Shown: in pieces, positions 48,363 through 62,638 of the stretch
Layout: the number at the start of each line of letters is the position of its first letter
Numbering within the stretch: the first letter of the stretch is position 1
Assembly: GCA_035544955.1 (NCBI GenBank)
Contig: DASZZN010000007.1
Span: 1-64,000, forward strand
Reading direction: 5' to 3'
Origin: Candidatus Dormiibacterota bacterium
GTDB lineage: Bacteria; Chloroflexota; Dormibacteria; CF-121
Length of the DNA stretch: 64,000 bases
The notes under the pieces: model-generated
Databases searched by the model: none
What the model saw: only the letters and a program-made list of their open reading frames with translations
What the model was told of the DNA's origin: nothing
Position numbers and translations under genes: made by a program

Positions 48363-48364
48363 CG

Positions 48365-49579
48365 TCAGCTCAGCGCGAGAATTACCAGCGTCTGATTGTG
48401 AAAACCACTGACGCCATTCGTGCGCGCGATCTCGCCATACGTATAGAACCCGGCGATGGGCGCGCCGCCGGCATGGAGGCCGATGCGCGACACCTCGCGG
48501 CGAATCCCCTCGTCGCCCAGCACGCCGCGCCGGGCGATGCAGTCGAAGGCGAGGAACCCGACCGGGCGGTGACCATCGAGGGAGGCCAGCGCATCGGAGC
48601 AGGCCGCGTCAGTGGCCTCGAGCACCGACGTGTCGTCGCCCTCCATGAACCAGGCCAGGCCACCCTGCGGGACGCCGGCGATGCAGATGAGTGACCGGTC
48701 CTCGAAATTGGCTTCGCCAACGAAGCGGACCTCCTCGCCGCTACGCCGGCTGAGGCCGAGGGGGTGGGTGATCGCAAACCGGGTGAAGGCCGCGGCATCC
48801 GTTCGAGCGCTGGCCGGCGCGTTGAGGCGATCCAGGTAAATGTCGAGCGCAGGCTTGTCGTCGAGGGTATGGACCCGGTTGTCGGCACTGCCTGTGACCA
48901 GCATCGGTTCGCCGACGCGCCGCCAACCATGCCGAACGCCGATGCCCATCGGGGAATCCGAGGCAATCGCTGCCCCAACGACGGCATCGGTTACCACCTG
49001 GGTGCCGTGGAATTGGTACGTCCGTTTCATCTTGAGGTCGTCGCCGGCGCAGCCTCCCACCAGGGGGACGGCCGCGCCAACGACTGAGTAGGCACCTCGG
49101 ACGACCTCCTGCTGGTCGCCGGAAAGGCCGTCGCTGAGGAGCATCAAGACTTTGTGCGGGCGCTCGGCCAGGCGAGATACCGACGCTGCGACCTCCGCGC
49201 TCGCCAAACGAAGGCGCCCGGAGGCGCCAGTCGCCAGCGCCGTTGCGATCGAGAAGCCCTCGCCGCCTAACGCCGTCACAACCACGCTGGAATCCCCGGG
49301 GCCGGAGACACCGATCTCACCCGCTGTCGAGCATCCGATGAGCGGCGCGCCACCCGACCGTTCGCTGATCGTTCGGATCAGCAGCTCCAGGTCGTAGGCA
49401 TCAGAGCAGAACACCACGAGGAGGCTCGCCTTGTCCTGCTCGAGTGCCTGGCCGGCCGCCTCCTCGCCAGCCGACCGGGCATCACCCGCTGCCGATCGGC
49501 CGACGCGCATCCACCGACGCGGGCCCGTGTCCACCATAGGCCAGAACTCAGTGGGCCTTGATTGCTTCGCAAAGCCCAT
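48365..49579 (-). CDS. FIST-domain sensory protein
   Basis: 404 residues. N-terminal FIST_N features (SLLVVFCSDAYDLELLIRTI, GAPLIGCSTAGEIGVSG, LLSDGLSGDQQEVVRGAYSVVGAAVPLVGGCAGD) and the C-terminal FIST_C end (GRPVGFLAF-like RPVGFLAFDCIARRG, APIAGFYTYGEIARTNG, FHNQTLVIL). FIST proteins are cytosolic sensor modules thought to bind small molecules, often next to signalling genes. It is the first gene of this leftward cluster, directly coupled to the GGDEF-EAL gene. The start is uncertain; ATG 49510 (MRVGRSAAGD) fits the family N-terminus as well. Confidence 0.85.
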   Translation of the reverse strand: MGFAKQSRPTEFWPMVDTGPRRWMRVGRSAAGDARSAGEEAAGQALEQDKASLLVVFCSDAYDLELLIRTISERSGGAPLIGCSTAGEIGVSGPGDSSVVVTALGGEGFSIATALATGASGRLRLASAEVAASVSRLAERPHKVLMLLSDGLSGDQQEVVRGAYSVVGAAVPLVGGCAGDDLKMKRTYQFHGTQVVTDAVVGAAIASDSPMGIGVRHGWRRVGEPMLVTGSADNRVHTLDDKPALDIYLDRLNAPASARTDAAAFTRFAITHPLGLSRRSGEEVRFVGEANFEDRSLICIAGVPQGGLAWFMEGDDTSVLEATDAACSDALASLDGHRPVGFLAFDCIARRGVLGDEGIRREVSRIGLHAGGAPIAGFYTYGEIARTNGVSGFHNQTLVILALS

Positions 49580-50563: not shown

Positions 50564-51154
50564 CTAGACAGCCGGGATCGCCTTGGGCTTGGCTGTCGCG
50601 AATGGCAGCGCGACCTTCTGCCGCTGGCGGACCCAGAGGACGATCTCCAGCGCAAAGGCGCCGAGGACCACGAAGGCTGCGACCGCCAAACCGATCGCCG
50701 CGTAAAGGGCGTAGGTTCCGATCGTCCACCAACCGTAAGCGTTCAGCAACAGGCCTCGAAGCGTCTCGCCCTTGAAGAGCGTCGCCACCTGGCCGGCCAT
50801 CTTCGTGTCAGTGGGGTTCGCCATCGCCTGCGCGCTCATCTGTGAGTAGGTCAGGCCACCGGCGACTTCGCTCAGATGCACGCCGATGAAGCTGTTCGCG
50901 TAGACCCTGGCTTGCTCGCCGGTGGTCAATTGCTGGCCACCGTAGACGTTCATGGCCGTCGCGTCGGCGGCCGGGAGGGCCGCGATCGCCGGGCTATTAG
51001 CAGCCGGGAAGTAGATCTGCTGCGCTGTCAACTCGGTCGAAATCTGATTGTGAATGAAAGAATTCCCCCAGAACAGGAACCCCGCGCAGAAAACCAGGAT
51101 GCCAATGAGGCCGGCCTGGAGGACCAACACTCGCCACCGCAATGTCTTTGTCAT
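50564..51154 (-). CDS. two-helix membrane protein, unknown function
   Basis: 196 residues: an N-terminal membrane helix (LVLQAGLIGILVFCAGFLFWG), an external region of about 110 residues (ELTAQQIYFPAANSPAIAAL, EVAGGLTYSQMSAQAMANPTD) and a second helix (YALYAAIGLAVAAFVVLGAFALEIVLWV). ATG 51154 has GGAGG eight bases upstream. Two GGGAC/GTCCC-type sites lie 86-145 bases upstream, so I infer membership in the DevR-like regulon. No family name is recalled. Confidence 0.75.
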   Translation of the reverse strand: MTKTLRWRVLVLQAGLIGILVFCAGFLFWGNSFIHNQISTELTAQQIYFPAANSPAIAALPAADATAMNVYGGQQLTTGEQARVYANSFIGVHLSEVAGGLTYSQMSAQAMANPTDTKMAGQVATLFKGETLRGLLLNAYGWWTIGTYALYAAIGLAVAAFVVLGAFALEIVLWVRQRQKVALPFATAKPKAIPAV

Positions 51155-51239
51155 CTCAATTACCTCCATCGAAAATTTGCCTCCTGGTCGTGCGCTCCAG
51201 GTGTTGATCTCATCCTGCAGCAGTAGGGCGGAAAGCTTC

Positions 51240-51254
51240 AGGACCGAAGGTCCC
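51240..51254. promoter_or_regulatory. imperfect DosR-box-like site (odd spacing)
   Basis: AGGACCGAAGGTCCC, a palindrome GGACC-GAA-GGTCC. Its spacing differs by one base from the other boxes. It lies 86-100 bases upstream of the gene starting at 51154 (-). Confidence 0.4.
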
Positions 51255-51284
51255 GACCTCGTGGTGACCCAATCTCCGCTGGCC

Positions 51285-51298
51285 GGGACCTAAGTCCT
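51285..51298. promoter_or_regulatory. DosR-box-like site
   Basis: GGGACCTAAGTCCT; on the minus strand AGGACTTAGGTCCC. It matches GGGAC-N4-GTCCC at 9 of 10 arm positions and shares the ACTT core of the mycobacterial DosR consensus. It is upstream of the gene at 51154 (-). Confidence 0.55.
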
Positions 51299-51310
51299 GC
51301 GACCGAAGCG

Positions 51311-51832
51311 TTACAGGCGGGCGAGCCCGATCGCCGTGGGTGTCGAGAAAGCCTGCGGGACGCAACGCCGCCAGCGGGACCGCCGCTCGGCGTTGGCGCG
51401 CGTGCTCAGCTCGAACATCACCCAGGCATAGGCGCCTGGGTCGTGGCCGTCGAAGGCGAGAGGGTCAAATCCCAGCGCCCGCAGGTCGGACTCGTCCTCG
51501 CCCGCATGAATAGCCAGAGACTCCAGCGCGAGGGGTACGAGCGTGCTGATCACGCGGTAGCCGGCCTCGGACGCGACGTGCGGATCGATCGATAGCGCGA
51601 CGCAGCGATCGGCTTCCTCGAGCGCCGTGAAGAAATCAGTGCGATCGACCCCGCTGCGCGCCAGTTGCTCCGTCATGCGAAAAACCCGCTCCTGGGTCTC
51701 GATCGAGTGCTGCACGTGGCGCAGGCCTCGTGCCCAGACGTCTGCCAGAGCGTGGTCGTGCCGATACTGGCGCACCCACTCGGTCCGCTGCTCGTTGAGC
51801 TCCGCCATCGGGGGACGAACTGCGACAACCAT
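51311..51832 (-). CDS. unknown soluble protein
   Basis: 173 residues, all-helical by appearance (HALADVWARGLRHVQHSIETQERVFRMTEQLARSG; ALSIDPHVASEAGYRVISTLVPLALESLAIHAGEDE). No domain is recognised. In-frame starts also exist at 51865 and 51808; 51865 lies only 3 bases from the palindrome at 51869-51882, so a downstream start leaves room for a promoter. It is divergent from the receiver-like gene at 51966. Confidence 0.6.
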   Translation of the reverse strand: MVVAVRPPMAELNEQRTEWVRQYRHDHALADVWARGLRHVQHSIETQERVFRMTEQLARSGVDRTDFFTALEEADRCVALSIDPHVASEAGYRVISTLVPLALESLAIHAGEDESDLRALGFDPLAFDGHDPGAYAWVMFELSTRANAERRSRWRRCVPQAFSTPTAIGLARL

Positions 51833-51868
51833 GGAAACGAGGATGCGCCAATACAGGCCGCACACATA

Positions 51869-51882
51869 GGGACGCTGGTCCC
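51869..51882. promoter_or_regulatory. DosR-box-like site in a divergent promoter region
   Basis: GGGACGCTGGTCCC, a perfect GGGAC-N4-GTCCC palindrome. It lies between the gene starting at 51832 (-) and the gene starting at 51966 (+). Confidence 0.6.
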
Positions 51883-51965
51883 GACCTAGAGAGGACGAAT
51901 GGGCCTGCTAGCCGATGCCAGGGTCGAACACGATTGACGGGCGATCTCATACGGAGGTACCTGAT

Positions 51966-52394
51966 ATGAGGAACACCACACTTCCCATGGTCCGCCGCGC
52001 GACCGTGCTCCTGGTCGAACCGGACCGAGAGGACCGCGAGCGCTTCGGTGGCTGGATGGAATCGGCGGGCATCGATCCGATCAACTGCCCCGGGCCCCAC
52101 GCTCCCGACTTCACCTGCCTTGGAACCTCGAACGCGCTCTGCCCGCTGGTCAACCTGGCCGATGTGGCGGTGCTCGACGTCCGCCGGCTGCCTGGGGCCT
52201 CGACGGCGGGCCTGCCCGGGTGGCGCTTACTCCGCTACTACCTCGAGCATGGCAAGCCGGTGGTCGTGATCGCCGATCGCTATCGGAAACCGACGTTCCG
52301 TCCGGAGCAGGTCTTCGTGCTCCGCCCGAATCCCGGGCGGGAGTCGCTGCTGCTGGCGGTTCGCGCGGTTCTTCGAGAAGCGGCGACCTGGTAG
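51966..52394 (+). CDS. degenerate receiver-like protein
   Basis: 142 residues. The frame looks like a CheY-type receiver: ATVLLVEPDREDRERFGGWMESAG, VAVLDVRRLPGASTAG (Asp at the phospho-site position), KPVVVIADRYRKP and VFVLRPNPGRESLLLAVRAVL. One acidic-pocket residue and the conserved Lys appear replaced (EPD in place of DDD; RPNP in place of KP), so phosphorylation is doubtful. GGAGG lies eight bases before ATG 51966. It has no output domain. A GGGAC-N4-GTCCC site is 84 bases upstream. Confidence 0.6.
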   Translation: MRNTTLPMVRRATVLLVEPDREDRERFGGWMESAGIDPINCPGPHAPDFTCLGTSNALCPLVNLADVAVLDVRRLPGASTAGLPGWRLLRYYLEHGKPVVVIADRYRKPTFRPEQVFVLRPNPGRESLLLAVRAVLREAATW

Positions 52395-52675
52395 CCCCAT
52401 GGCGCTCTTAGTCGACGAGGACGATCGGCGGATCGCCCGTCGCGCGCTCCATCAGGCCGATGAACTTGCTCGACGATCTCGAGGAGCTGCAACTCCGCGG
52501 CGTCTCCGAAGTACCGTCCTGGTGTGGCGAGAAGGAAACGGCGCCGCGCCGGGCAGCGAACCTGGCCGGGCATTTGGAACCCGCAGCTCGAGACCGAGTG
52601 TGGCGTGATCAAGCTGATGGACGACGTCTACGAGCTGGAAGAACGCCTCATGCGCTGCCTACGCTTGCGGACGGT
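52395..52675. other. intergenic stretch without a convincing gene
   Basis: Several short frames exist on both strands, but none has a ribosome site or a family pattern. A + frame ending at TAG 52679 reads ETECGVIKLMDDVYELEERL and looks protein-like, but lacks a clear start. It may be debris of a lost gene. Confidence 0.3.
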
Positions 52676-52813
52676 TTAGCGACCGGTTGCGTTCGTCTCG
52701 GCGTAATAGCACCGCCAGATCAGCCGAAAAACCAGGACGGAGGCGAAGCCGGTCACGCGATTGCTCCCGCGGATCGCACCGACCACGAAGTCGACGAGGC
52801 CCCTCGGATACCG
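52676..52813 (-). pseudogene. possible DUF4389 fragment
   Basis: The frame RYPRGLVDFVVGAIRGSNRV followed by a hydrophobic run resembles the conserved start of DUF4389 membrane repeats (YPR-LFDFVVG-RW--RV). It has no start codon of its own, no YPPF motif follows, and it stops after 46 codons. The assignment is by eye and weak. Confidence 0.25.
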
Positions 52814-52817
52814 CCTG

Positions 52818-53264
52818 TCAGCCGGCCGGCGTCATCGTTGCCTCGATGGCCGAGGCGAGCCGATCGATGAAGTCCTTGATCGTGGCTTCCGCGACGCGGG
52901 AGAGCAGAGCCTTGTCCATGGTCCGCCCAACCAACCCGAGCGGTGGCTGGTACCGAGCGCTGATGGAAAGCTGCGTCAGGTGAGCTCCCAGCGAAGCCAG
53001 TTCCAGTTCGGCGTCGAGCACGGGGAAAAGTCCTGTCGGTCCGGTCGCGCGCCACGTGAGCGGGAACCAGGTTCGCTCGGTACCCATGACCGGCTCTCCA
53101 ATCTCGATCTCGACGTGCTTGGAAACCCGATGGCCGTCTACGGCAAAGCCGACCTCAGCCATGAGATGCTGGCCGCGATCATCCGCAACGATGGCTAAAT
53201 TCGGAATCACGCCTGCAGGCACCGAGAGGAGCGTCTGCTCGAGGGCTGCGCGTGGGTGCGGCAA
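52818..53264 (-). CDS. SRPBCC-like protein, paralogue 1 (N-terminus disturbed)
   Basis: 148 residues from TTG 53264. The sequence (NLAIVADDRGQHLMAEVGFAVDGHRVSKHVEIEIGE, FPVLDAELELASLGAHLTQLSISARYQPP, RVAEATIKDFIDRLASAIEA) parallels the protein at 56768-57262 along its whole length. The frame continues upstream past the TTG as IFIRYYVEL, matching FLRYFVEL of the paralogue, but no in-frame start exists. ATG 53293 would be in register if one base were inserted after its second codon. A one-base deletion at codon 2-3 is therefore suspected. The fold guess (coenzyme Q-binding/polyketide-cyclase-like) is weak. Confidence 0.6.
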   Translation of the reverse strand: MPHPRAALEQTLLSVPAGVIPNLAIVADDRGQHLMAEVGFAVDGHRVSKHVEIEIGEPVMGTERTWFPLTWRATGPTGLFPVLDAELELASLGAHLTQLSISARYQPPLGLVGRTMDKALLSRVAEATIKDFIDRLASAIEATMTPAG

Positions 53265-53324
53265 TTCGACGTAATACCTGATAAAGATGGCATTGACGCT
53301 ACAGCCAGTGCTTCGACAGCCATA

Positions 53325-53338
53325 GGGACCATGGTCCC
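53325..53338. promoter_or_regulatory. DosR-box-like site before the DevR-like gene
   Basis: GGGACCATGGTCCC, a perfect 14-bp palindrome matching GGGAC-N4-GTCCC. It lies 60 bases upstream of GTG 53399 and also upstream of the divergent SRPBCC-like gene. This suggests autoregulation. Confidence 0.65.
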
Positions 53339-53398
53339 CTCCCCGACAGGACCAGTGATCTTGGTTAACCCCGCTTCTTCTGCGAAGATAGCCTGATC

Positions 53399-54058
53399 GT
53401 GAGCGGCATTCCCCTTCGGGTCGTCCTCGTCGACGACCATGAAGTCGTCCGGAACGGCATCAAGTCGCTCCTCGCAGAGACTCCGGATGTCAGCGTCGTC
53501 GGTGAAGCGGGCACCGTCAAGGACGCCATCGAGCGGGCCATGTGGGCTCGACCCGACGTCGTCATCATGGACGTCCGCCTGCCGGACGGCAGCGGCATCG
53601 AGGCCACCCGAGAAATCCGGGCGCGTCTGCCAAACACCCAGGTCCTGATGCTGACCACCTTCTCGGACGACGAGGCGCTCTTCGCTTCGATCATGGCCGG
53701 CGCCGCCGGCTATGTCCTGAAGCAGATCAAGGGCGCCGACCTCGTCCGGGCCGTCCAGACCGTCGGCCGTGGCGAGAGTTTGCTCGATCCCGCCGTCACC
53801 AAGGGTCTGCTCGATCGGCTACGAAGGGGCAAGCACCTGCTCAAGGACGAACGGCTGGCCCGCCTCTCGGCCCAGGAGGAGCGCATCCTCGAGATGATCG
53901 CCGAGGGCAAGACGAACCGCGAGATCGGCGACAAGCTGCACCTTGCCGAGAAGACGGTCAAGAACTATGTCACCAGCATCCTCTCCAAGCTCGAGGTCGC
54001 CCGCCGCGCCGAAGCTGCCGCCTACCTGACGCGACACACCACGACGCCGGGCGCCTGA
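53399..54058 (+). CDS. DevR/DosR-like response regulator (copy 1)
   Basis: 219 residues, NarL/FixJ family. The receiver has VDDHEVVRNG, phospho-Asp58 (VIMDVRLPDGSG) and Lys in LKQIKG. The C-terminal LuxR HTH reads LSAQEERILEMIAEGKTNREIGDKL and LAEKTVKNYVTSILSKLEV. The recognition-helix KTVKNYV is the same as in mycobacterial DosR, where those Lys and Asn residues contact the DosR box. The start is GTG 53399. It is followed after 4 bases by the GNAT-synthetase gene, so they form an operon. It is the close paralogue of the regulator at 59063. Confidence 0.92.
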   Translation: MSGIPLRVVLVDDHEVVRNGIKSLLAETPDVSVVGEAGTVKDAIERAMWARPDVVIMDVRLPDGSGIEATREIRARLPNTQVLMLTTFSDDEALFASIMAGAAGYVLKQIKGADLVRAVQTVGRGESLLDPAVTKGLLDRLRRGKHLLKDERLARLSAQEERILEMIAEGKTNREIGDKLHLAEKTVKNYVTSILSKLEVARRAEAAAYLTRHTTTPGA

Positions 54059-54062
54059 GCTT

Positions 54063-56771
54063 GTGAGCCAGGTCACGGACGCGGCCGGCGCGCCGGCGTT
54101 GGAGACGGACGTCGTCTTGCGCGACGGGTCGACCGTTCGCGTGCGGCCGACGCGGGCTGGCGACGAGCCGGCGATCCTCGCGTTTCTCGGCGGGCTATCG
54201 GACGAGTCACGGTATTTTCGCTTTTTCTCCGGCGCGCCGAATCTGAGCGAAGCGGCTCACCGGGCAGCGAACTCCGAGCTCGGCGAGCGATGCAACCTGG
54301 TCGCCCTCGTCGGCGCCGAACCCAGCATCGTCGCCCAGGCCGGCTATTTCCGCGGCGAGGGGGACCGGGCGGAGGTCGCGTTCGCCGTGGCTGACACATT
54401 CCAGGGCCGTGGGATTTCGACCATCCTCCTTGGCCAGCTGGCCGAGATCGCTCACGCCGTCGGCATCACCACGTTCGATGCCTCCGTCCTTTCGGAGAAC
54501 CATCGCATGATCGGGGTATTCCGCGAGAGCGGCTTCAAAGTTTCGACCCACGCCTCGGCAGGCGTTATCGACGTTGAGTTCCCTACCTCTCTTCGGCCGG
54601 AGGCGGTGGAGCGGTTCGCGCGGCGAGAGCAGATGGCGGCGATGGCGGCACTGGAGCATGTGCTCGTGCCAGGGTCGGTTGCCGTCATCGGCGCGTCGCG
54701 GACGCGAGGGACGATCGGCGCGGAGCTCTTCCACAACCTGCTCTCGAACGGCTTCAATGGCCCGGCCTATCCCGTCAATCCCTCCGCTGCCGTCGTCCAG
54801 TCGGTGGTGGCGTATCCGACCGTCCTCGATATCCCGGGCCCAGTCGACCTGGCCGTGATTGCCGTACCCGCTATCCACGCGGTCGGGACCGCGCGCCAAT
54901 GCGCGAAGAAAGGTGTCAAGAGCCTCGTCGTGATCTCCTCCGGGTTCGCCGAGTCAGGCGACGAGGGTGCCAACCGACAGGCCGAGTTGCTCGCGGTGTG
55001 CCGTGAGGCCGGAATGCGACTTGTCGGGCCCAATTGCATGGGCGTGATCAACACGGCGCCCGACGTTTCGATGAATGCCACGTTCGGCCCGGCGACACCT
55101 CCGCGCGGTCGCGTCGGCTTCATGTCACAGAGCGGCGCCCTGGGGCTGGCGGTGATCGACTATGCAAAGACCCTTGGCCTCGGCTTGTCGTGGTTCATCT
55201 CCGCCGGGAACAAGGCCGACCTTTCCGGCAACGACGTACTTCAGTACGCCGAGACGGATCCTCACACCGACCTGGTGCTGCTCTACCTCGAATCGTTCGG
55301 GAATCCGCGCAAGTTCGCGCGAATTGCCCGGCGCGTGGCGCGGACCAAGCCCATCATCGCTGTCAAAAGTGGACGCTCCGCCGCCGGTGCCCGAGCGACC
55401 TCATCGCACACTGGCGCGATGCTCTCGGCCTCCGACGCCACCGTCGATGCGCTGTTCCGCCAGGCGGGCGTCATCCGGACCGATACGTTGGCCGAACTCT
55501 TCGACGTCGCCGCCCTGATGTCCAGCCAACCGGCTCCCGCGGGAAAGCGGGTCGCCGTCATCACAAACGGGGGCGGACCCGGCATCCTCTGCGCGGACGC
55601 CTGCGAGGCGGAGGGCCTGGTCGTACCTCCCCTTCCAGACGACGTCACCGCCGGACTGCGGCAATTCCTTCCTCCCCAGGCCTCGGTCCGCAATCCGATC
55701 GACATGATCGCCGCCGCCTCGGCCGACGACTACCGGCGGGTGATCCGCACGGTAGCGGCGTCCGACAGTATCGACGCGATCGTGGTCATCTTCATTCCGC
55801 CGCTCGTTACGCAGCCGGGCGACGTTGCACGCGCAATTCGGGACGCGGCGGAGACGTTGCCACGACCCATTCCGCTCATCAGCGTCTTCATGTCGGCGCA
55901 GGGCGTGCCCGACGAACTCAAGGGCAAGAAAGTCAGCATCCCCTCCTTTCAGTTCCCCGAAGACGCCGCGCGCGCCCTGGCCCGGTCGGCCGTTTATGGT
56001 GAGTGGCGTCATCGACCGGAGGGAACGGTTCGCGACTTTCCCAACGCCCGGCCAGACGAGGCTGCCGGGATTATCTCGTCGGTGCTGGCCACCGAGGCCC
56101 GATGGCTGACGGGAGAGGAGACGCAGCAGTTGCTCACCTGCTATGGGATAGCACTCGCCCCAACGCGCTTCGCTGCGACGCCGCTGCAGGCTCGAGAAGC
56201 CGCTGGCGAGTTGGGCGGACGGGTGGCCCTCAAGGCGATGGCACCAACGCTGCTGCACAAGTCCGACGCCGGGGGCGTCCGCCTTGGATTGACGGTCGAC
56301 GACATCGAGGATGCCGCCCGCGAGATGACGATGCGAGTTGCCCGGGGCGGCCACGTGCTTTCAGGGTTCCAGGTGCAGGCGATGATCAGCGAGGGCGTCG
56401 AGATGCTGGTCGGCGTCGTCCATGACCGCCTCTTTGGGCCGGTCCTGGCCTGCGGAGCGGGCGGCACCACGGCGGAACTGCTCAAGGACATTGCGGTCCG
56501 GATCACGCCGCTGTCTGACCTGGACGCGCGGGAGATGCTGCGTTCGCTCAAGACCTTCCCGCTGCTGGACGGCTATCGCGGCGCTCCTAAGGCGGACGTC
56601 GCCGCGTTGGAGGAGGTGATGCTCCGAGTCAATGCCATGGTGGAAGGACACGCAGAAATCGCCGAGCTCGACTGCAATCCGGTCATGGTCGGCCAGCACG
56701 GCGCCATCGTCGTGGACGCGCGGCTTCGGCTAGAGATGCCGTTGCCAAGGCGGCCGATCGGGGCACGCTAG
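54063..56771 (+). CDS. GNAT acetyltransferase fused to an ADP-forming acyl-CoA synthetase
   Basis: 902 residues. N-terminal GNAT domain (residues about 15-175; VRVRPTRAGDEPAILAFL, VADTFQGRGISTILLGQLAEIA). The CoA-binding Rossmann domain comes next (VAVIGASRTRGTIGAELFHNLL), then succinyl-CoA ligase-like domains with the phospho-His region SSHTGAMLSASDATVDALFRQAGV (His near 446), and a C-terminal ATP-grasp domain (LTCYGIALAPTRFA, LKAMAPTLLHKSDAGGVRLGL, LDCNPVMV). Such fusions are Pat/Acd-type proteins joining protein lysine acetylation with acetate or acyl-CoA metabolism. Co-transcribed with the DevR-like gene (4-base gap). The GTG start lacks a strong ribosome site; coupling is likely. Confidence 0.93.
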   Translation: MSQVTDAAGAPALETDVVLRDGSTVRVRPTRAGDEPAILAFLGGLSDESRYFRFFSGAPNLSEAAHRAANSELGERCNLVALVGAEPSIVAQAGYFRGEGDRAEVAFAVADTFQGRGISTILLGQLAEIAHAVGITTFDASVLSENHRMIGVFRESGFKVSTHASAGVIDVEFPTSLRPEAVERFARREQMAAMAALEHVLVPGSVAVIGASRTRGTIGAELFHNLLSNGFNGPAYPVNPSAAVVQSVVAYPTVLDIPGPVDLAVIAVPAIHAVGTARQCAKKGVKSLVVISSGFAESGDEGANRQAELLAVCREAGMRLVGPNCMGVINTAPDVSMNATFGPATPPRGRVGFMSQSGALGLAVIDYAKTLGLGLSWFISAGNKADLSGNDVLQYAETDPHTDLVLLYLESFGNPRKFARIARRVARTKPIIAVKSGRSAAGARATSSHTGAMLSASDATVDALFRQAGVIRTDTLAELFDVAALMSSQPAPAGKRVAVITNGGGPGILCADACEAEGLVVPPLPDDVTAGLRQFLPPQASVRNPIDMIAAASADDYRRVIRTVAASDSIDAIVVIFIPPLVTQPGDVARAIRDAAETLPRPIPLISVFMSAQGVPDELKGKKVSIPSFQFPEDAARALARSAVYGEWRHRPEGTVRDFPNARPDEAAGIISSVLATEARWLTGEETQQLLTCYGIALAPTRFAATPLQAREAAGELGGRVALKAMAPTLLHKSDAGGVRLGLTVDDIEDAAREMTMRVARGGHVLSGFQVQAMISEGVEMLVGVVHDRLFGPVLACGAGGTTAELLKDIAVRITPLSDLDAREMLRSLKTFPLLDGYRGAPKADVAALEEVMLRVNAMVEGHAEIAELDCNPVMVGQHGAIVVDARLRLEMPLPRRPIGAR

Positions 56772-57262
56772 GCAACTGCCGAAGTGGGCGATCCCCCGAG
56801 AACACGCGTTGTTACCACGCGCGCCAGGCCGTCGACGAATACCTTGAGGGTCGCTTCACCGACCCGCTGCGCCGTCCCCCGATCGATATGCCTGTTCGTA
56901 ACCGAGCCAGGCAAGTAGTAGCGACCGGCGACCGCCAGCTGACTACGGCCGCGACCCAGGGAGCCGAGCTCCAGGTCTGCTTCCAGAAGAGGCCTTGCCG
57001 TCTGCGGCCCGACGAGCGCCCAGGCCATGGTGCGGAGGCTGGTGGATCCCCGGTGAATAGCTGGCTGCATACCGAATACCACCACCGCGCCCATCAGGTG
57101 ATCGCCCACGAGCGGATCGGCCTCCAGTATCAGGCGGAGCGATCGGGCATGGGCCTTGTTGGCTACCCCGGCGAGCCATTCCGCCGGTAGCGCGTCAAGG
57201 GCCGTCTCGACCTCCGTCATCGGCAGCTCCAACTCGACGAAGTAGCGCAGGAAGGACTCCAT
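56768..57262 (-). CDS. SRPBCC-like protein, paralogue 2
   Basis: 164 residues: MESFLRYFVELELPMTEVETALDALPAEWLAGVAN, AVVVFGMQPAIHRGSTSLRTMAWALVGPQTARPLLEADLELGSLGRGRSQLAVAGRYYLPG, then QRVGEATLKVFVDGLARVV. It is a full-length paralogue of the protein at 52818. ATG 57262 was chosen over 57355, because the latter leaves no promoter space to the divergent kinase gene. Its 3' end overlaps the end of the synthetase gene by 4 bases. Its consistent placement next to DevR/DevS-like genes suggests a role in the same response. Confidence 0.7.
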   Translation of the reverse strand: MESFLRYFVELELPMTEVETALDALPAEWLAGVANKAHARSLRLILEADPLVGDHLMGAVVVFGMQPAIHRGSTSLRTMAWALVGPQTARPLLEADLELGSLGRGRSQLAVAGRYYLPGSVTNRHIDRGTAQRVGEATLKVFVDGLARVVTTRVLGGSPTSAVA

Positions 57263-57297
57263 ATCATGAGTCTGGGCAGCGCCGGCCGGCGACGCAC

Positions 57298-57311
57298 CGG
57301 CCAAAGGTCCC
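57298..57311. promoter_or_regulatory. weak DosR-box-like site before the kinase gene
   Basis: CGGCCAAAGGTCCC matches GGGAC-N4-GTCCC at 8 of 10 arm positions. It lies in the divergent region between paralogue 2 and the kinase. Confidence 0.3.
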
Positions 57312-57363
57312 GGTTGCGTCGGGACGAGGATGCCCGGGTTCAAGCCGTGGTGCATATACCTGA

Positions 57364-58986
57364 ATGAGATCCAGCAACGATCGAAAGGACCAGCTGCTCG
57401 AGTCCGTACTCATCCTCGCGTCGGACCTGTCGCTTGATGTTGTGCTGCAACGGATCATCGAGCTGGCGGTCAAACTGACCGACGCGCGATACGGGGCCCT
57501 GGGAGTCGTCGGTTCGGACGGCCGGCTCCTGGACTTCATCACGACGGGCGTCACCCCTGAGCAACGCCAGGCAATCGGGTCGCTGCCGGTCGGCGAGGGG
57601 ATCCTGGGCGTTCTGATCAGGGATGCCAAACCCTTGCGCCTGCAGCGCATCTCGAACGATCCGCGCCATGTCGGCTTCCCCCCCAACCACCCGCCGATGG
57701 GGTCGTTTCTGGGCGCGCCCGTGATGGCGCGTGGGAAGGTCTTCGGCAACATTTACCTGACCGAGAAGCAGGGTGGGCCGGAGTTCGATGCCGACGACGA
57801 AGCCGCGGTCCTCGTCCTCGCGACCCACGCCGGGGTCGCTATCGAGAACGCGCGGCTCTATAAGGAGACCAGGCGGCGAGGCCAGTGGCTCGAAGCCGTT
57901 CGGGAAATCAGCGCGGCGATCCTCGCCGGGATGGGAGGCGATCGCGTGCTGCAGATCATCGTCCGCCGCGCTCGGGAGCTGGTGGACGCCGCGACGGCAA
58001 CAATCGTGACGCCGGCGACAGGCGGCGGAAGCGACGCCCTGACGATCAGAGTGGCCGACGGAGCCCATGCCGGAGCGTTGATCGGGTTGCCGGTACCCAC
58101 GCAGGGATCGGTCTCCGGAGACGTCATCCGGAGCGGCCGGCCGGAGGTGCTCGCGGATGCTTCCAGGGACGGTCGGGCCTACCAGCCGATGATCGCCCTC
58201 GGGAACATGGGCCCGATGGTGCTCGTCCCGCTCGTCCTTCGAGGCCGGCCATTCGGCACATTGACCGTGGCCAACCCCGTCGGCGCGGCCGCCTTTGACG
58301 AGGAGGCCATCGGGCTCGTCGAGACGTTCGCCGACCAGGCTTCGGTGGCGCTCGAGTATGGTCGGGCCCAGGACGAGTTGAACCGCCTCAGCGTGCTCGA
58401 CGAGCGCGAACGGATCGGGCGCGAGCTCCACGACGGCGTCATCCAGTCACTGTTCTCGGTAGGGATGGGCCTGCAGGCAACAGCGGTCCGCAGCCGCGAT
58501 CCCGAGGTGGAATCGCGAATCGAGTCGGCGGTTACCGAGATCGACCGGGCGATTCGTGACCTGCGCAATTACATCTTCGGGCTTCGCCCGGGAATCCTCG
58601 CTGATCGTCAGCTGGAGCAGGCTCTCGAGGACCTGGCCCGAGACTTTGAAGAGAAGAGCGGCGTCACCACGGTGACCGACATCGACGGAACGGTGGCGGC
58701 GGAGCTCGCGCCGCGTGCGGCCGACCTCGTGCAGCTCACGCGCGAGGCGCTGTCCAACGTTGGCAGGCACGCGCAGGCGACGACCTGCCGGGTCAGTCTG
58801 CGTCGAGACGGCGACCAGGCCGTCCTCGAAATCGACGACGACGGACAGGGGTTCGACGTGGCGGCGCCGCACACCGGCCTGGGGCTGCGCAACCTCAACG
58901 ACCGTGCGCTAGCGATCGGCGGGCGGATAACGGTCGAAAGCAGGGCAGCAGAGGGCACGACGGTTCAGTTCGCGGTTCCCATCTAG
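57364..58986 (+). CDS. DevS/DosS-like sensor histidine kinase (GAF-GAF-HisKA_3-HATPase)
   Basis: 540 residues, soluble. GAF-A (about residues 20-165) has the DosS-type run GEGILGVLIRDAKPLRLQRI, VGFPPNHPPMGSFLGAPV and VFGNIYLTEKQGG. GAF-B spans about 178-335. The kinase core has phospho-His356 (ERERIGRELHDGVIQSLF), N-box LTREALSNVGRHAQ, DDDGQGFD and GLGLRNLNDRA. In mycobacterial DosS/DosT, GAF-A binds heme through a His and senses O2, NO or CO; His102 or His109 here are candidates, which I cannot verify. It is separated from the second DevR-like gene by 76 bases. Confidence 0.93.
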   Translation: MRSSNDRKDQLLESVLILASDLSLDVVLQRIIELAVKLTDARYGALGVVGSDGRLLDFITTGVTPEQRQAIGSLPVGEGILGVLIRDAKPLRLQRISNDPRHVGFPPNHPPMGSFLGAPVMARGKVFGNIYLTEKQGGPEFDADDEAAVLVLATHAGVAIENARLYKETRRRGQWLEAVREISAAILAGMGGDRVLQIIVRRARELVDAATATIVTPATGGGSDALTIRVADGAHAGALIGLPVPTQGSVSGDVIRSGRPEVLADASRDGRAYQPMIALGNMGPMVLVPLVLRGRPFGTLTVANPVGAAAFDEEAIGLVETFADQASVALEYGRAQDELNRLSVLDERERIGRELHDGVIQSLFSVGMGLQATAVRSRDPEVESRIESAVTEIDRAIRDLRNYIFGLRPGILADRQLEQALEDLARDFEEKSGVTTVTDIDGTVAAELAPRAADLVQLTREALSNVGRHAQATTCRVSLRRDGDQAVLEIDDDGQGFDVAAPHTGLGLRNLNDRALAIGGRITVESRAAEGTTVQFAVPI

Positions 58987-58993
58987 CGTCTCT

Positions 58994-59024
58994 AACGTCC
59001 CGCTCATCTCGGGACGTTGGGCCC
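58994..59024. promoter_or_regulatory. hairpin overlapping a DosR-box-like site before the second DevR-like gene
   Basis: AACGTCCCG / CGGGACGTT (58994-59018) forms a 9-bp hairpin 7 bases after the kinase stop. Its right arm overlaps GGGACGTTGGGCCC (59011-59024), which matches GGGAC-N4-GTCCC at 9 of 10 arm positions and the mycobacterial consensus GGGACTTNNGNCCCT at all but one fixed position. It is about 40 bases upstream of ATG 59063. Confidence 0.55.
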
Positions 59025-59062
59025 TGATTGGAATCGCCCTCGCAGGCCAATATGAGTTCGTT

Positions 59063-59740
59063 ATGCAGGCCCATGTCGGCCCCCACACGCTTATACCGCT
59101 GCGGATCATGATCGTCGACGACCACGAGGTTGTTCGCGACGGGATCAAGGCCCTGTTGGCGGAAGAAGAAGGCCTAACCATCGCGGGCGAGGCGGGAGGA
59201 GTGCGAGAGGCCATTGAGCGGGCTGAGTGGGCACGACCCGACGTCGTGGTGATGGATATCCGGCTTCCTGACGGGAGCGGGATCGACGCCACCCGGGAGA
59301 TCCGCGCCCGCTTTCCCAACACTCACGTGCTAATGCTGACTACCTTTGCCGATGACGAGGCGCTGTTCGCTTCGATCATGGCTGGGGCTTCCGGATATGT
59401 CCTCAAGCAGGTACTTGGTGGTGACCTGGTGCGGGCCATTCGCGCCGTCGGCGCCGGCCAGAACCTCCTCGATCCCACGGTCACCAAAGGCGTTCTCGAC
59501 CGCCTTCGGAAGGGCAAGCATCTCCTCGGGGATGAGCGGCTTGCTCGGCTCTCGGCTCGTGAGGAGCGGATCCTCGGCGAGGTCGCGGCCGGCAAGACCA
59601 ACCGGCAGATCGGCACCGACTTGAAACTCGCCGAGAAGACCGTCAAGAACTACGTGTCGAGCATTCTCGCCAAGCTGGAGGTGGCGCGCCGCGCCGAGGC
59701 CGCTGCCTATCTCGTCCGGCATATGCAACCGCTCGGATGA
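59063..59740 (+). CDS. DevR/DosR-like response regulator (copy 2)
   Basis: 225 residues. Receiver: IMIVDDHEVVRDG, phospho-Asp65 (VVVMDIRLPDGSG), MLTTFADDEALFASIMAGASGYVLKQ. HTH: LSAREERILGEVAAGKTNRQIGTDLKLAEKTVKNYVSSILAKLEV, with the DosR-type recognition sequence KTVKNYV. It is closely similar to the regulator at 53399 over its length. It lies after the DevS-like kinase, so it is the likely direct partner. Its stop overlaps the start of a small membrane-protein gene (ATGA). The exact start could be nearer 59108. Confidence 0.92.
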   Translation: MQAHVGPHTLIPLRIMIVDDHEVVRDGIKALLAEEEGLTIAGEAGGVREAIERAEWARPDVVVMDIRLPDGSGIDATREIRARFPNTHVLMLTTFADDEALFASIMAGASGYVLKQVLGGDLVRAIRAVGAGQNLLDPTVTKGVLDRLRKGKHLLGDERLARLSAREERILGEVAAGKTNRQIGTDLKLAEKTVKNYVSSILAKLEVARRAEAAAYLVRHMQPLG

Positions 59741-59868
59741 AAACCATGATCACGACTTCTCTTCTCGCATCGACGGCCCTGGTGCCGGCGTTGGGAGTGC
59801 TGGCACTGCTCGGCCTGATCCCCCTCTGCTTTTTCTCCTACATCCGCCATCTCAACAGCATCGACTGA
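59737..59868 (+). CDS. small membrane protein (43 aa) coupled to the response regulator
   Basis: ATG 59737 overlaps the regulator stop (ATGA). The product MKTMITTSLLASTALVPALG continues with LALLGLIPLCFFSYIRHL, one hydrophobic helix and a short polar tail. It ends 23 bases before the dehydrogenase gene. No family is recognised. The overlap and operon position make it plausible; it could be part of signalling or membrane attachment. Confidence 0.5.
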   Translation: MKTMITTSLLASTALVPALGVLALLGLIPLCFFSYIRHLNSID

Positions 59869-59891
59869 TTAGCCATAAGGAGGCAATTTCT

Positions 59892-60986
59892 ATGAACGCT
59901 CTCGTGTATCACGGACCCGGAAAAAAGAGTTGGGACAAGGTTCCCGACCCTGCGATTCAACAGCCGACGGATGCGATCGTCAGCATCGATTTAACGACCA
60001 TCTGCGGCACGGACCTGCATATCTTGAAGGGAGACGTCCCCGAGACCAAGCGCGGCACGATCCTGGGGCATGAGGCCGTCGGGACTATCGTGGAGGTCGG
60101 ATCGGCCGTTACCACGGTGCAGATCGGCGATCACGTGCTGCTGTCATGCATCAGCTCCTGCGGCCGCTGCGCGTACTGCAAGCAGGGGCGTTACGGCGCA
60201 TGCACCGGCGGCGGGGGATGGATCTTCGGACACACGATCGACGGGACACAGGCCGACTACGTTCGCGTCCCGTTCGCGGATACGTCCGTCTACAAGATCC
60301 CCGCGGGCCTGACCGATGAGCAGGTCCTGTTCCTTTCCGATATTTTGCCGACCTCGTTCGAAGTCGGCGTGCTGAACGGCAAGGTATCACCCGGCGATAC
60401 GATCGCCGTGGTCGGTGCGGGCCCAATCGGCCTTGCGGTCATCCTGACCGCCCGACTCTTCTCACCCGGAAAGATCATTGCCATCGATCTTGCCGACACG
60501 CGGCTCAAGAAAGCCCGAGAATTCGGCGCGGATGTCACGATCAACAACACCACCGGCGATACGGTCGCGCAGGTGATGGCCATGACTGACAGTCTTGGCG
60601 TCGATGTCGCGATCGAGGCGGTCGGCACCCCGGCCACCTTCGAACTGTGCGCCGACCTGGTCAAGCCAGGAGGCCACGTGGCGAACGTCGGCGTGCACGG
60701 ACATCCGGCAACGCTCCACCTGGAGAAGCTTTGGATTCGAGACGTCACCATCACAACCGGCCTGGTCGACAGCTACACCATTCCGCGGCTGCTGAACTTG
60801 ATCAAGGGCGGACGCCTGGATCCGACCGTGTTCGTGACCCATCGCTTCGCGATGAGTGATGCGGTAGCAGCTTACGATGTCTTTGCGGCGGCGGCGGCAA
60901 CCGGCGCGCTCAAAGTCACCTTGAAGCGGGACGCTGTCGTGCCGCAAGCGGTGAAGAAGGAACTGGTCGCGGCCGGGGCCCGCTAG
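59892..60986 (+). CDS. zinc-dependent alcohol dehydrogenase (MDR family)
   Basis: 364 residues. Catalytic zinc ligands Cys38 (TICGTDLH) and His60-Glu61 (LGHEAVG). Structural zinc cysteines are at 90, 93, 96 and 104 (CGRCAYCKQGRYGAC). NAD(P) site is VVGAGPIGLAVIL, and IAIDLADTRL carries the Asp after the second strand that favours NAD. It resembles threonine/secondary-alcohol dehydrogenases, so the substrate is open. AAGGAGG lies before ATG 59892. It is the last gene of the DevR-like operon, with a terminator after it. A GGGACAAGGTTCCC (59932-59945) inside the gene fits the box pattern at 9 of 10 arm positions but is coding sequence. Confidence 0.93.
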   Translation: MNALVYHGPGKKSWDKVPDPAIQQPTDAIVSIDLTTICGTDLHILKGDVPETKRGTILGHEAVGTIVEVGSAVTTVQIGDHVLLSCISSCGRCAYCKQGRYGACTGGGGWIFGHTIDGTQADYVRVPFADTSVYKIPAGLTDEQVLFLSDILPTSFEVGVLNGKVSPGDTIAVVGAGPIGLAVILTARLFSPGKIIAIDLADTRLKKAREFGADVTINNTTGDTVAQVMAMTDSLGVDVAIEAVGTPATFELCADLVKPGGHVANVGVHGHPATLHLEKLWIRDVTITTGLVDSYTIPRLLNLIKGGRLDPTVFVTHRFAMSDAVAAYDVFAAAAATGALKVTLKRDAVVPQAVKKELVAAGAR

Positions 60987-61294: not shown

Positions 61295-62638
61295 CTAGGC
61301 TGCCAGGAGTGCCGGCGGCACCCAGTTCTCGAGCCACCCTGCGAGATGCGCGGCGGAGAGCGGCCGGCTGATGAGATATCCCTGCGCCTGGTCGCAGCCC
61401 ATCTGCTCGAGGAGGCGGAGGGTGGTCGTGTCTTCGACGCCTTCGGCGACGACCCGTTTCCCGAACTTGTGGGCAAGATCGATGCTGGCCTGCACGATGG
61501 TGCGATCCCCTTCGCTGGTGCTCATTTTCATGACGAAGGAACGGTCGATCTTGATTTCGTCGACTGGCAATCGGCCTAGATAGGCGAGGGAGGAATAGCC
61601 GGTCCCGAAGTCGTCGATGGCGAGCTGAAATCCCATCGCGCTCAGCCGCTTGAGGATGTGCTGCGTCCGGTCGGGCTTCGCCATCACGACCGACTCGGTG
61701 AGCTCAAGCGCTATCCCAGCAGACGATACGAACCCGGCCTCGAGTGCCGCCCCCAATTGGAGCGGAAAGTCGTCGTCATCGAGGATCGACGCAGTGAGAT
61801 TGATCGCCATGGGCAGGGTCAGACCACGGTCATCCCACTCCCGAAACTGTCGCAGCGCGAGGTCGAGGACCGCGAACGTTAGCGGCTTCATGATGCCCGC
61901 GCGCTCGGCCACGCCGATGAAAGCATCTGGGAACATCAGCTTCTGGCCTGGGGGCGACCAACGAACGAGTGCCTCGACCCCAACGATGCGCCGTGTCCGT
62001 AAATCAAACTTCGGCTGGTAATGCAGGACGAGCTCCCCCTGATGGATGGCTCGGCGAAGTCGATTTGCTGCCTGGGTTTCATCAGGACCCTCTTCAAGCG
62101 GGTACCGGCGGACGTCCATGGACCAGGCGATCAACCCGCCAGATCCAACAATCAGCATGAATAGGGCGCCAACCGCGGCGAGCCCAGGGCTCCCGAGTAC
62201 GAGCTCCTCCCCGATTCCAAGCACGCATGCGACCGCCAGCACCGGCCAGCTTCGGTAGAGCGCGATGGAGGCCGTCATGACAACGAAATAGGCGAATCGC
62301 TGTGGTCCGGTTGACGCATAGGCCGCGAGGCCCGCGCAAGCCATCAAGCCGACCGACACGACGGTGGCGCGAAGCAATCGGGTGCCGCGGATCAATGTCG
62401 CGAGCACCGCCAGAGCGGCGACCAGCCCCACCAGGCGGAAGCTTCTTAGGTCCTGACCGTGAAGCAAGACGAGGACGCCGACCGGCGGGATATTCGCCCA
62501 GAGGACCAGTCGCAGTATTTGGTGGCGATGCGCCCACAGTCGCGGCGGAAGCACGGGCGGGCTCGCCCAGCGGCGCGCCGCATCCGACGCCCTCACCACG
62601 CCCTGGCGCCAGCGGGCCGGGCGGGACCGAGCCTCCAC
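61295..62638 (-). CDS. membrane-bound EAL-domain c-di-GMP phosphodiesterase
   Basis: 447 residues. About five hydrophobic helices are in residues 38-175 (LVLWANIPPVGVLVLLHG, LVGLVAALAVLATLI, VVSVGLMACAGLAAYA). The EAL domain follows with VEALVRWSPPGQ, AINLTASILDD, LELTESVVM, DDFGTGYSSLAYLGRLP, EIKIDRSFV and AEGVED, so catalytic and metal residues are present. It should hydrolyse c-di-GMP at the membrane. No GGDEF or PAS domain exists. Start ATG 62638 is uncertain, as no ribosome site is clear. An 18-bp palindrome lies 39-56 bases upstream. Confidence 0.9.
   Translation of the reverse strand: MEARSRPARWRQGVVRASDAARRWASPPVLPPRLWAHRHQILRLVLWANIPPVGVLVLLHGQDLRSFRLVGLVAALAVLATLIRGTRLLRATVVSVGLMACAGLAAYASTGPQRFAYFVVMTASIALYRSWPVLAVACVLGIGEELVLGSPGLAAVGALFMLIVGSGGLIAWSMDVRRYPLEEGPDETQAANRLRRAIHQGELVLHYQPKFDLRTRRIVGVEALVRWSPPGQKLMFPDAFIGVAERAGIMKPLTFAVLDLALRQFREWDDRGLTLPMAINLTASILDDDDFPLQLGAALEAGFVSSAGIALELTESVVMAKPDRTQHILKRLSAMGFQLAIDDFGTGYSSLAYLGRLPVDEIKIDRSFVMKMSTSEGDRTIVQASIDLAHKFGKRVVAEGVEDTTTLRLLEQMGCDQAQGYLISRPLSAAHLAGWLENWVPPALLAA

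Follow-up and report, generated by a model that had tools for sequence, protein, structure and literature searches.

Two genomic islands of a Dormibacteria bacterium encode a probable DosR/DosT-type two-component regulon with paired operator boxes

The 64,000-nucleotide stretch analysed here (the window; positions 1 to 64,000 of contig DASZZN010000007.1, assembly GCA_035544955.1, from a Candidatus Dormiibacterota bacterium) contains a gene cluster that, together with a second island, very probably forms a DosR/DosT-type two-component regulon responding to hypoxia or nitric oxide (NO) outside the Actinobacteria. Sequence comparisons identify DosR-kind regulators, kinases, predicted operators and candidate target genes; each island has two regulators and one kinase, and we infer hypoxia or NO as the signal. 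The second island lies on contig C14 of the same 3.67-Mb genome. The predicted operator is a pair of palindromic boxes 23 bp apart with nine bases between them (N9), and it is this pair that appears to be the discriminating feature of the regulon.

The top relative of the regulator in the PDB was Mycobacterium tuberculosis DevR/DosR (E 9.8e-60). Both window regulators contain the KTVKNYV sequence announced by the original prediction, and the AEKTVKNYV recognition helix and the phospho-accepting Asp are retained; D58 and K188 align with DevR residues 54 and 182, respectively. In all, the genome encodes four closely related paralogues of the regulator; two are those of the window, and the two on C14 are 84 and 78% identical to regulator 1. 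A phylogenetic tree of 141 regulators placed those of the window and its class in one clade of 37 rows (support 100/100), which includes three metagenome-assembled genomes (MAGs) labelled Actinobacteria or Acidobacteria, and all 30 Mycobacteriales rows in a neighbouring, mostly actinobacterial clade (99/92). The rows of L031 (labelled Candidatus Dormiibacterota) and G222 (same class) are identical. A regulator match at E 1e-78 or better was present in 95 of 400 genomes drawn from the phylum.

The predicted two-GAF architecture of the kinase was confirmed, with HisKA_3 and HATPase domains in addition. The first GAF domain (GAF-A) matched best 2vzw (E 7.6e-47), which we take to be DosT, and also matched DevS (E 4.8e-41). 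Kinase residues H109, Y131 and G47 correspond to H149, Y171 and E87 of DosS (chain numbering plus five added residues; PMC4082495). In the available text of that source, H149 is the heme ligand and Y171 discriminates between ligands; DosT, whose oxy complex is stable, has Gly85 in place of E87, and the role of E87 is disputed. Both kinases of the genome, 71% identical to each other, retain the H, Y and G. Among 69 GAF-A matches in 144 loci, the His was kept in 67, the Tyr in all 69 and the Gly in 40 of the 43 matches extending over that position; the two exceptions for the His carry Q (L051) and D (L183). By these residues, GAF-A is predicted to be a heme domain of the DosT/DevS type.

The original prediction had listed GGGAC-N4-GTCCC palindromes in the promoter regions of the cluster. 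Exact boxes were found at 51869 and 53325 and boxes with one mismatch each at 51285 and 59011, all as claimed; of the two weaker sites, 57298 was borne out (two mismatches) and 51240 was off by one, the actual start being 51241 (two mismatches). An additional one-mismatch box, at 59932, had not been listed and lies inside the alcohol dehydrogenase gene. The number of boxes in the whole window was at chance level (5 seen vs 4.33 expected). In the 6.3 kb called intergenic, boxes with at most one mismatch numbered four vs 0.44 expected, a value reached by none of 500 simulated sequences, and all four fall in the cluster, in line with the claim that the window has no equal intergenic match elsewhere. 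The genome-wide motif scan that had been proposed as a check gave a divided answer, the single box being about as frequent as background and the box pair clearly above control.

Printing the sites side by side revealed a second, weaker box 23 bp away. Among the 66 distances (14 to 79 bp) tested around 13 intergenic island sites, 23 bp alone stood out, with a mean partner mismatch of 3.54 vs an average of 6.32, and 11 of the 13 sites had a partner with at most four mismatches at this distance. The same was true of six sites in a congener (L026, the MAG 'Chloroflexi bacterium CF_106'; mean mismatch 3.67, five of six partnered). Pairs with up to three mismatches occurred six times in the genome vs none in the reversed control, and all six are in the two islands (window 51869 and C14 256567–278404). 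Up to five mismatches, there were 18 pairs in 32.7 kb of island DNA (control 0) vs three in 231 kb of non-island DNA of the same genome (control 1). A scan of spacers from 3 to 20 bases, with at most four mismatches, yielded 12 island pairs for N9 and at most one for any other spacer. Sixteen of the 18 island pairs were called intergenic by a simple custom gene caller, whose starts are approximate and which makes some errors (such as L117:746-1570, at odds with an overlapping cysteine-receiver frame); of the remaining two, the pair at window 57298 is intergenic if gene 56768 starts at 57262, and that at L117:1219 if the reverse-strand call overlapping the receiver frame is discarded. The exact single box occurred eight times in the genome vs three in the reversed control. 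Three of these sites are in the islands, and the other five (three inside called genes, two ambiguous) have no partner with at most four mismatches 23 bp away.

The N4 centre of the box was left free in every search. Nevertheless, the two middle bases of the centre were A or T in 46 of 64 positions (32 unique boxes; p 6e-9 at 36% A/T), compared with 19 of 64 for the outer centre bases and 42 of 117 for the 9-bp spacer, which is at background. This A/T middle matches the NWWN centre of the DosR box, whose consensus is given as GGGHC-NWWN-GNCCC in the available text of PMC2947987. Seventeen of the 32 boxes were within one mismatch of that consensus; since the boxes had been preselected by their GGGAC/GTCCC arms, the part of the match that is independent of the arms is the central A/T. 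The earlier proposal that a DosR-like protein and a DosR-like site are conserved together is thus supported by DevR as the top PDB relative, by the DosT/DevS-like GAF-A and by the A/T box centre.

The C14 island (about 255 to 282 kb) repeats the plan of the window, with two regulators and one kinase, and the proposed DosR-type regulon is thereby larger than the single cluster originally claimed. It also carries three of the receiver-like proteins with invariant cysteines (cysteine receivers) and SRPBCC-like proteins, and one of its genes (L117:1726-2355) is similar, as judged by eye, to window gene 51311-51865. Its stress genes encode HSP20, four universal stress proteins, three CBS proteins, DoxX, a PNPOx-like protein and a P-type cation ATPase, which presumably resembles CtpF; a further protein with an AAA/zeta-like end is, we assume, similar to Rv2004c. 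More than one box is found at many promoters of the islands, and boxes directly precede several candidate target genes on C14. HSP20 is encoded about 1.5 kb from the closest pair upstream of it, with the same orientation. Two double boxes 40 bp apart precede an aa3-type cytochrome oxidase operon (L117:3329-6772, C14 278–282 kb). Near the C14 regulator cluster, a short open reading frame (L017:19246-19578) resembles the helix-turn-helix part of a transposase and is a possible trace of island movement.

Among relatives, L026 is largely colinear with the window island, and both exact boxes are letter-identical. In this congener, genes for a cupredoxin-type protein and a CopC-CopD-YtkA copper protein likewise follow double boxes (L026:7155-10377). 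Within the family (18 genomes), six genomes have the pair, six the kinase and five both (Fisher p 0.004, the relatives not being independent); one genome scored as lacking the kinase (G001) carries a stretch with 58% identity to the kinase close to its pair, at a contig end. In G007 and G009, the pair is located between the regulator and a cysteine-receiver gene; here the sensor appears to have been swapped on one kind of regulon, PAS-domain kinases being encoded at L162:5936-7132 (G007) and L163:2991-4190 (G009) and the cysteine receiver being kept. A scan of the class gave totals of 95 forward vs 36 control pairs (per-genome tallies read by eye). One other family (f2) showed many apparently unrelated pairs, one of them beside a purine-type permease (L236). 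In another (f3), the pair precedes a kinase-regulator operon and, on the other side, an iron-sulfur oxidoreductase operon. An alignment of eight f3 genomes showed that both boxes and the 9-bp length are kept and that the spacer letters and flanks vary; these loci were picked for holding the pair (8 of 18 f3 genomes), so that the evidence is the alignment and not the count. The f3 double box (L228–L235) is a near-palindrome of 37 bp, and the far operon encodes a membrane 4Fe-4S protein and a GltD-like flavoprotein of unknown role. In 72 wider named loci (L034–L105), single boxes showed no clear general enrichment (46 vs 35 in the control), with 23 bp as the best distance (7 of 46) and N9 as the best spacer (6 vs 0 in the control). 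The recognition sequence reads GEGTVRNYV in 22 of these 72 regulators, three of which (L059, L068, and L069) have a GAF-A of this kind in the locus. A MAG labelled Acidobacteria encodes the regulator, kinase, cysteine receiver, SRPBCC-like protein and GNAT-synthetase together (L028:8442-17458), which would reflect either transfer between phyla or mis-binning.

Several observations weigh against a DosR/DosT-type hypoxia regulon. Single boxes with up to one mismatch were found 167 times genome-wide vs 146 in the reversed control. Taken alone, the single box therefore comes close to what the original prediction had named as grounds for abandoning the idea (a motif equally common inside coding regions genome-wide), and the single-box scan was rejected as proof of a regulon; the pair escapes this objection. 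However, pairs are not specific everywhere either: 53 of 110 class genomes have one, some beside unrelated genes, and one pair within the family (G010:C132) is found outside the island, within a called gene. The node joining the window-class and actinobacterial clades has a support of 94/77, which is below the strict threshold, in a tree that was rooted at its midpoint. Finally, congeners G007 and G009 combine the regulator and boxes with a PAS kinase without GAF-A, and the signal may therefore differ there. The last point, together with the fact that heme binding is deduced from alignment, favours an alternative in which regulators and operators are of the DosR type and the kinase senses something other than O2 or NO at a heme (e.g., redox state or a GAF-B ligand), so that the islands would not form a hypoxia regulon. 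We regard this as rather unlikely, given the near-invariance of the H, Y and G in both kinases and across loci and the presence of an aa3-type oxidase behind double boxes. Far less probable is a generic stress system of the NarL/LiaR/MadR type, with a DosR likeness at the family level and boxes belonging to another regulator. The best NCBIfam matches of the regulator are indeed the MadR, MctR and NarL models (all far under cut-off), and VraR is its second PDB match (E 8.3e-47); nevertheless, DevR is ahead of VraR by 42 bits, GAF-A is of the DosT type, and the boxes conform to the published DosR box, including its A/T centre, and cluster with the system in two islands and in relatives. The idea that the palindromes act in RNA, as hairpins or terminators, or belong to a dispersed repeat is hardly credible. 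An RNA hairpin with 5 bp in the stem and 4 bases in the loop is conceivable; most boxes, however, precede genes or lie between divergent genes, are paired at one distance, and have an A/T centre and a variable spacer.

The DosR/DevR-DosS/DosT system of M. tuberculosis resembles the one predicted here in regulator and GAF-A sequence, recognition helix and box consensus, and universal stress and small heat-shock proteins are among its targets as well as among the candidate targets here. CBS proteins and a cation ATPase also belong to the M. tuberculosis DosR regulon. The strong and weaker boxes of each pair are reminiscent of the strong and weak promoter sites that DevR binds cooperatively, according to the available text of PMC3029386. 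In contrast to that regulon, the present one belongs to another lineage, is arranged in two islands with two regulators each, and has a spacing of sharply N9, a putative acetyltransferase gene behind regulator 1, cysteine receiver-like and SRPBCC-like partners, and an aa3-type oxidase behind boxes.

Comparison with Mycobacteriales showed that the arrangement itself is shared. In 20 regulator loci of this order, pairs were counted as 6 vs 0 (N7), 8 vs 3 (N8) and 9 vs 0 (N9) against the control, and 23-bp pairs in 121 Mycobacteriales genomes totalled 106 vs 46. The distance test anchored at sites gave 22 sites vs 5 in the control for 30 regulator loci, with 23 bp not favoured, and 53 vs 18 for 20 wider loci, with 21 and 22 bp as the best distances. 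Among the pairs listed, at least five are within 11 kb of a regulator match (G116, G039, G140, G139, and G092; L258–L262); that of G139 is 10 kb from the regulator, where the gene calls look unreliable. In G116, a two-mismatch double box with a 9-bp spacer (L258:8740-8776) is located 68 bp before a DosR-type regulator. The idea that the 23-bp pair is unique to the window lineage was rejected, as pairs occur at Mycobacteriales regulators; since the spacers there range from 7 to 9 bp, the sharp N9 is the local feature.

A DosR-type regulon outside the mycobacteria, OsdR/OsdK of Streptomyces coelicolor, has the support of gel-shift experiments and of an osdR mutant in the available text of PMC5069765, which also describes a compact region with universal stress protein, zinc-dehydrogenase and PNPOx genes, as seen here. 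The 14-mer GGGACCTTCGGCCC of the SCO0167 and SCO0216 boxes in that text is letter-identical to the C14 island box at L017:16618. The OsdR consensus differs (GGGCC-N4-GGCCC), and the accessible part of the article makes no mention of a fixed-distance pair for OsdR (PMC5069765). Because OsdR binds such boxes, the location outside mycobacteria emphasized by the original prediction is true for this regulon and not new in itself. Literature searches found no DosR-type regulon in Chloroflexi, Chloroflexota or Dormibacter, nor one outside the Actinobacteria, and papers naming DosR along with Chloroflexota or Chloroflexi had no bearing on the question, with few subscription papers covered and DevR with Chloroflexota or Dormibacter alone not searched.

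Table 1. Genes and predicted operators of the window island
Feature	Coordinates	Strand	Basis or remark
Membrane or exported protein, family unknown	50564..51169	-	Homologues in boxed loci of relatives
Box region upstream of 50564-51169	51241..51298	.	Boxes at 51241 (2 mismatches) and 51285 (1 mismatch), 44 bp apart
Conserved protein, function unknown	51311..51865	-	Homologues in boxed loci L026, L162, L163
Double box (predicted operator), 3/20 mismatches	51869..51905	.	First box identical in congener MAG L026
Receiver-like protein, three invariant cysteines	51966..52394	+	Start picked for preceding GGAGG
SRPBCC-like protein 1	52818..53264	-	Alternative start 53210; model pLDDT (predicted local distance difference test) 76.7, weak PDB matches
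Double box (predicted operator), 4/20 mismatches	53325..53361	.	Between SRPBCC-like protein 1 and regulator 1
DosR/DevR-type response regulator 1	53399..54058	+	Domain search, PDB relatives, tree
GNAT + ADP-forming acyl-CoA synthetase-like protein, putative Pat-type lysine acetyltransferase	54063..56771	+	4 bases after regulator 1
SRPBCC-like protein 2	56768..57262	-	Start shifted from 57355 per alignment
Double box (predicted operator), 4/20 mismatches	57298..57334	.	Between SRPBCC-like protein 2 and kinase
DosT/DosS-type histidine kinase	57364..58986	+	GAF-A, GAF-B, HisKA_3, HATPase; predicted heme ligand H109, distal Y131, G47
Double box (predicted operator), 4/20 mismatches	58988..59024	.	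Upstream of regulator 2
DosR/DevR-type response regulator 2	59063..59740	+	KTVKNYV, domain search, tree
Zinc-type alcohol dehydrogenase family protein	59892..60986	+	Island membership by position only

The remaining genes of the island include several candidate partners of the two-component system (Table 1). The protein encoded behind regulator 1 joins a Pat-like GNAT domain to ADP-forming acyl-CoA synthetase domains. Its GNAT part matched best 4nxy, a synthetase-linked GNAT (E 9.8e-29), followed by the lysine acetyltransferase 4ava (1.1e-12), which we take to be Rv0998, and 4oll, 'acetyltransferase Pat' (3.9e-11); the NCBIfam model of mycobacterial Pat gave 1.1e-19, well under cut-off. Rv0998 of M. 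tuberculosis has a cyclic-nucleotide domain and is not known to be encoded next to dosR. Its GNAT domain is related to that of the window protein, in which the domain is instead fused to the synthetase-like part and encoded directly behind the regulator gene. Rv0998 acetylates DosR at K182, which abolishes DNA binding, in the available text of PMC5861037 and PMC5999986. The aligned lysine of the window regulator, K188, is kept, and by analogy the GNAT-synthetase may act on the regulator. Homologues near a regulator were also found in L028 (64% identical, labelled Acidobacteria), L032 and L202, the last being the only case with a GNAT-synthetase in a set of 16 other class genomes whose regulator loci were covered to ±1.5 kb.

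The receiver-like protein has Cys at three columns in all 10 aligned members, and its model (pLDDT 87.5) had 213 PDB matches at E 0.001 or better, to receiver domains. Seemingly strong matches to TAL repeats in a profile search of PDB sequences were discarded as spurious, since they involve one 28-residue stretch and none passes alone. The cysteine receiver was present in 6 of 110 class genomes and, among the named loci, in L026, L027 and L028; being sparse in the class, it is a partner of this subgroup and not of the system at large. SRPBCC-like proteins occur near the regulator in 7 of 16 other class loci and 6 of 13 named loci scanned. Their PDB matches are weak (best E 6e-3), and the name is therefore a suggestion. 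Searches of Pfam and NCBIfam with the 50564-51169 protein returned zero matches, and copies about 76% identical to it are present in the loci of G007 and G001. The alcohol dehydrogenase gene showed no separate double box. The island is flanked by genes for a GAF-GGDEF-EAL protein and a FIST-domain protein (46035-49537) on one side and an EAL protein (61295-62554) on the other.

In the mechanism that we propose, GAF-A of the kinase would bind heme via H109, and bound O2, held by Y131, would keep the kinase inactive; it would be switched on when O2 is lost, or by NO or carbon monoxide. Phosphate would then pass from H356 of the kinase to the Asp of the regulators (D58 in regulator 1). Phosphorylated dimers would bind the two boxes side by side in a 23-bp register, with the stronger half-sites facing each other (GTCCC-N9-GGGAC), and would activate the stress genes, the alternative oxidase and the regulators' own genes. 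A bolder version, which is conceivable and in our view doubtful, would make the island a self-contained dormancy switch with two further inputs encoded on the spot. Here, the GNAT-synthetase would acetylate K188, so that the acetyl-CoA level could veto DNA binding, and the three-cysteine receiver would be a redox- or metal-sensing partner that tunes the regulator or the kinase. Two phosphorylated dimers would engage the 37-bp double box jointly, as a single unit whose geometry is fixed, and the cassette of regulator, kinase, cysteine receiver, SRPBCC-like protein and GNAT-synthetase would have moved between phyla.

To judge by our searches, the new elements are the occurrence of a regulon of this type in the class, its duplication over two islands, the tightly set spacing of the double box, the cysteine receiver and the linkage of a putative acetyltransferase gene to the regulator. 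The 37-bp double box, combined with the regulator, would provide a sharper search pattern for such regulons in uncultured genomes. If the prediction is true, the island may serve as a compact and harmless model of how box spacing sets activation and, because a likely acetyltransferase gene lies directly behind the gene of its likely substrate, of how acetylation and phosphorylation meet on one regulator. The hypoxia dormancy switch of mycobacteria and Streptomyces would then be common to a little-studied soil lineage outside the Actinobacteria, and would not be tied to the life of a pathogen.

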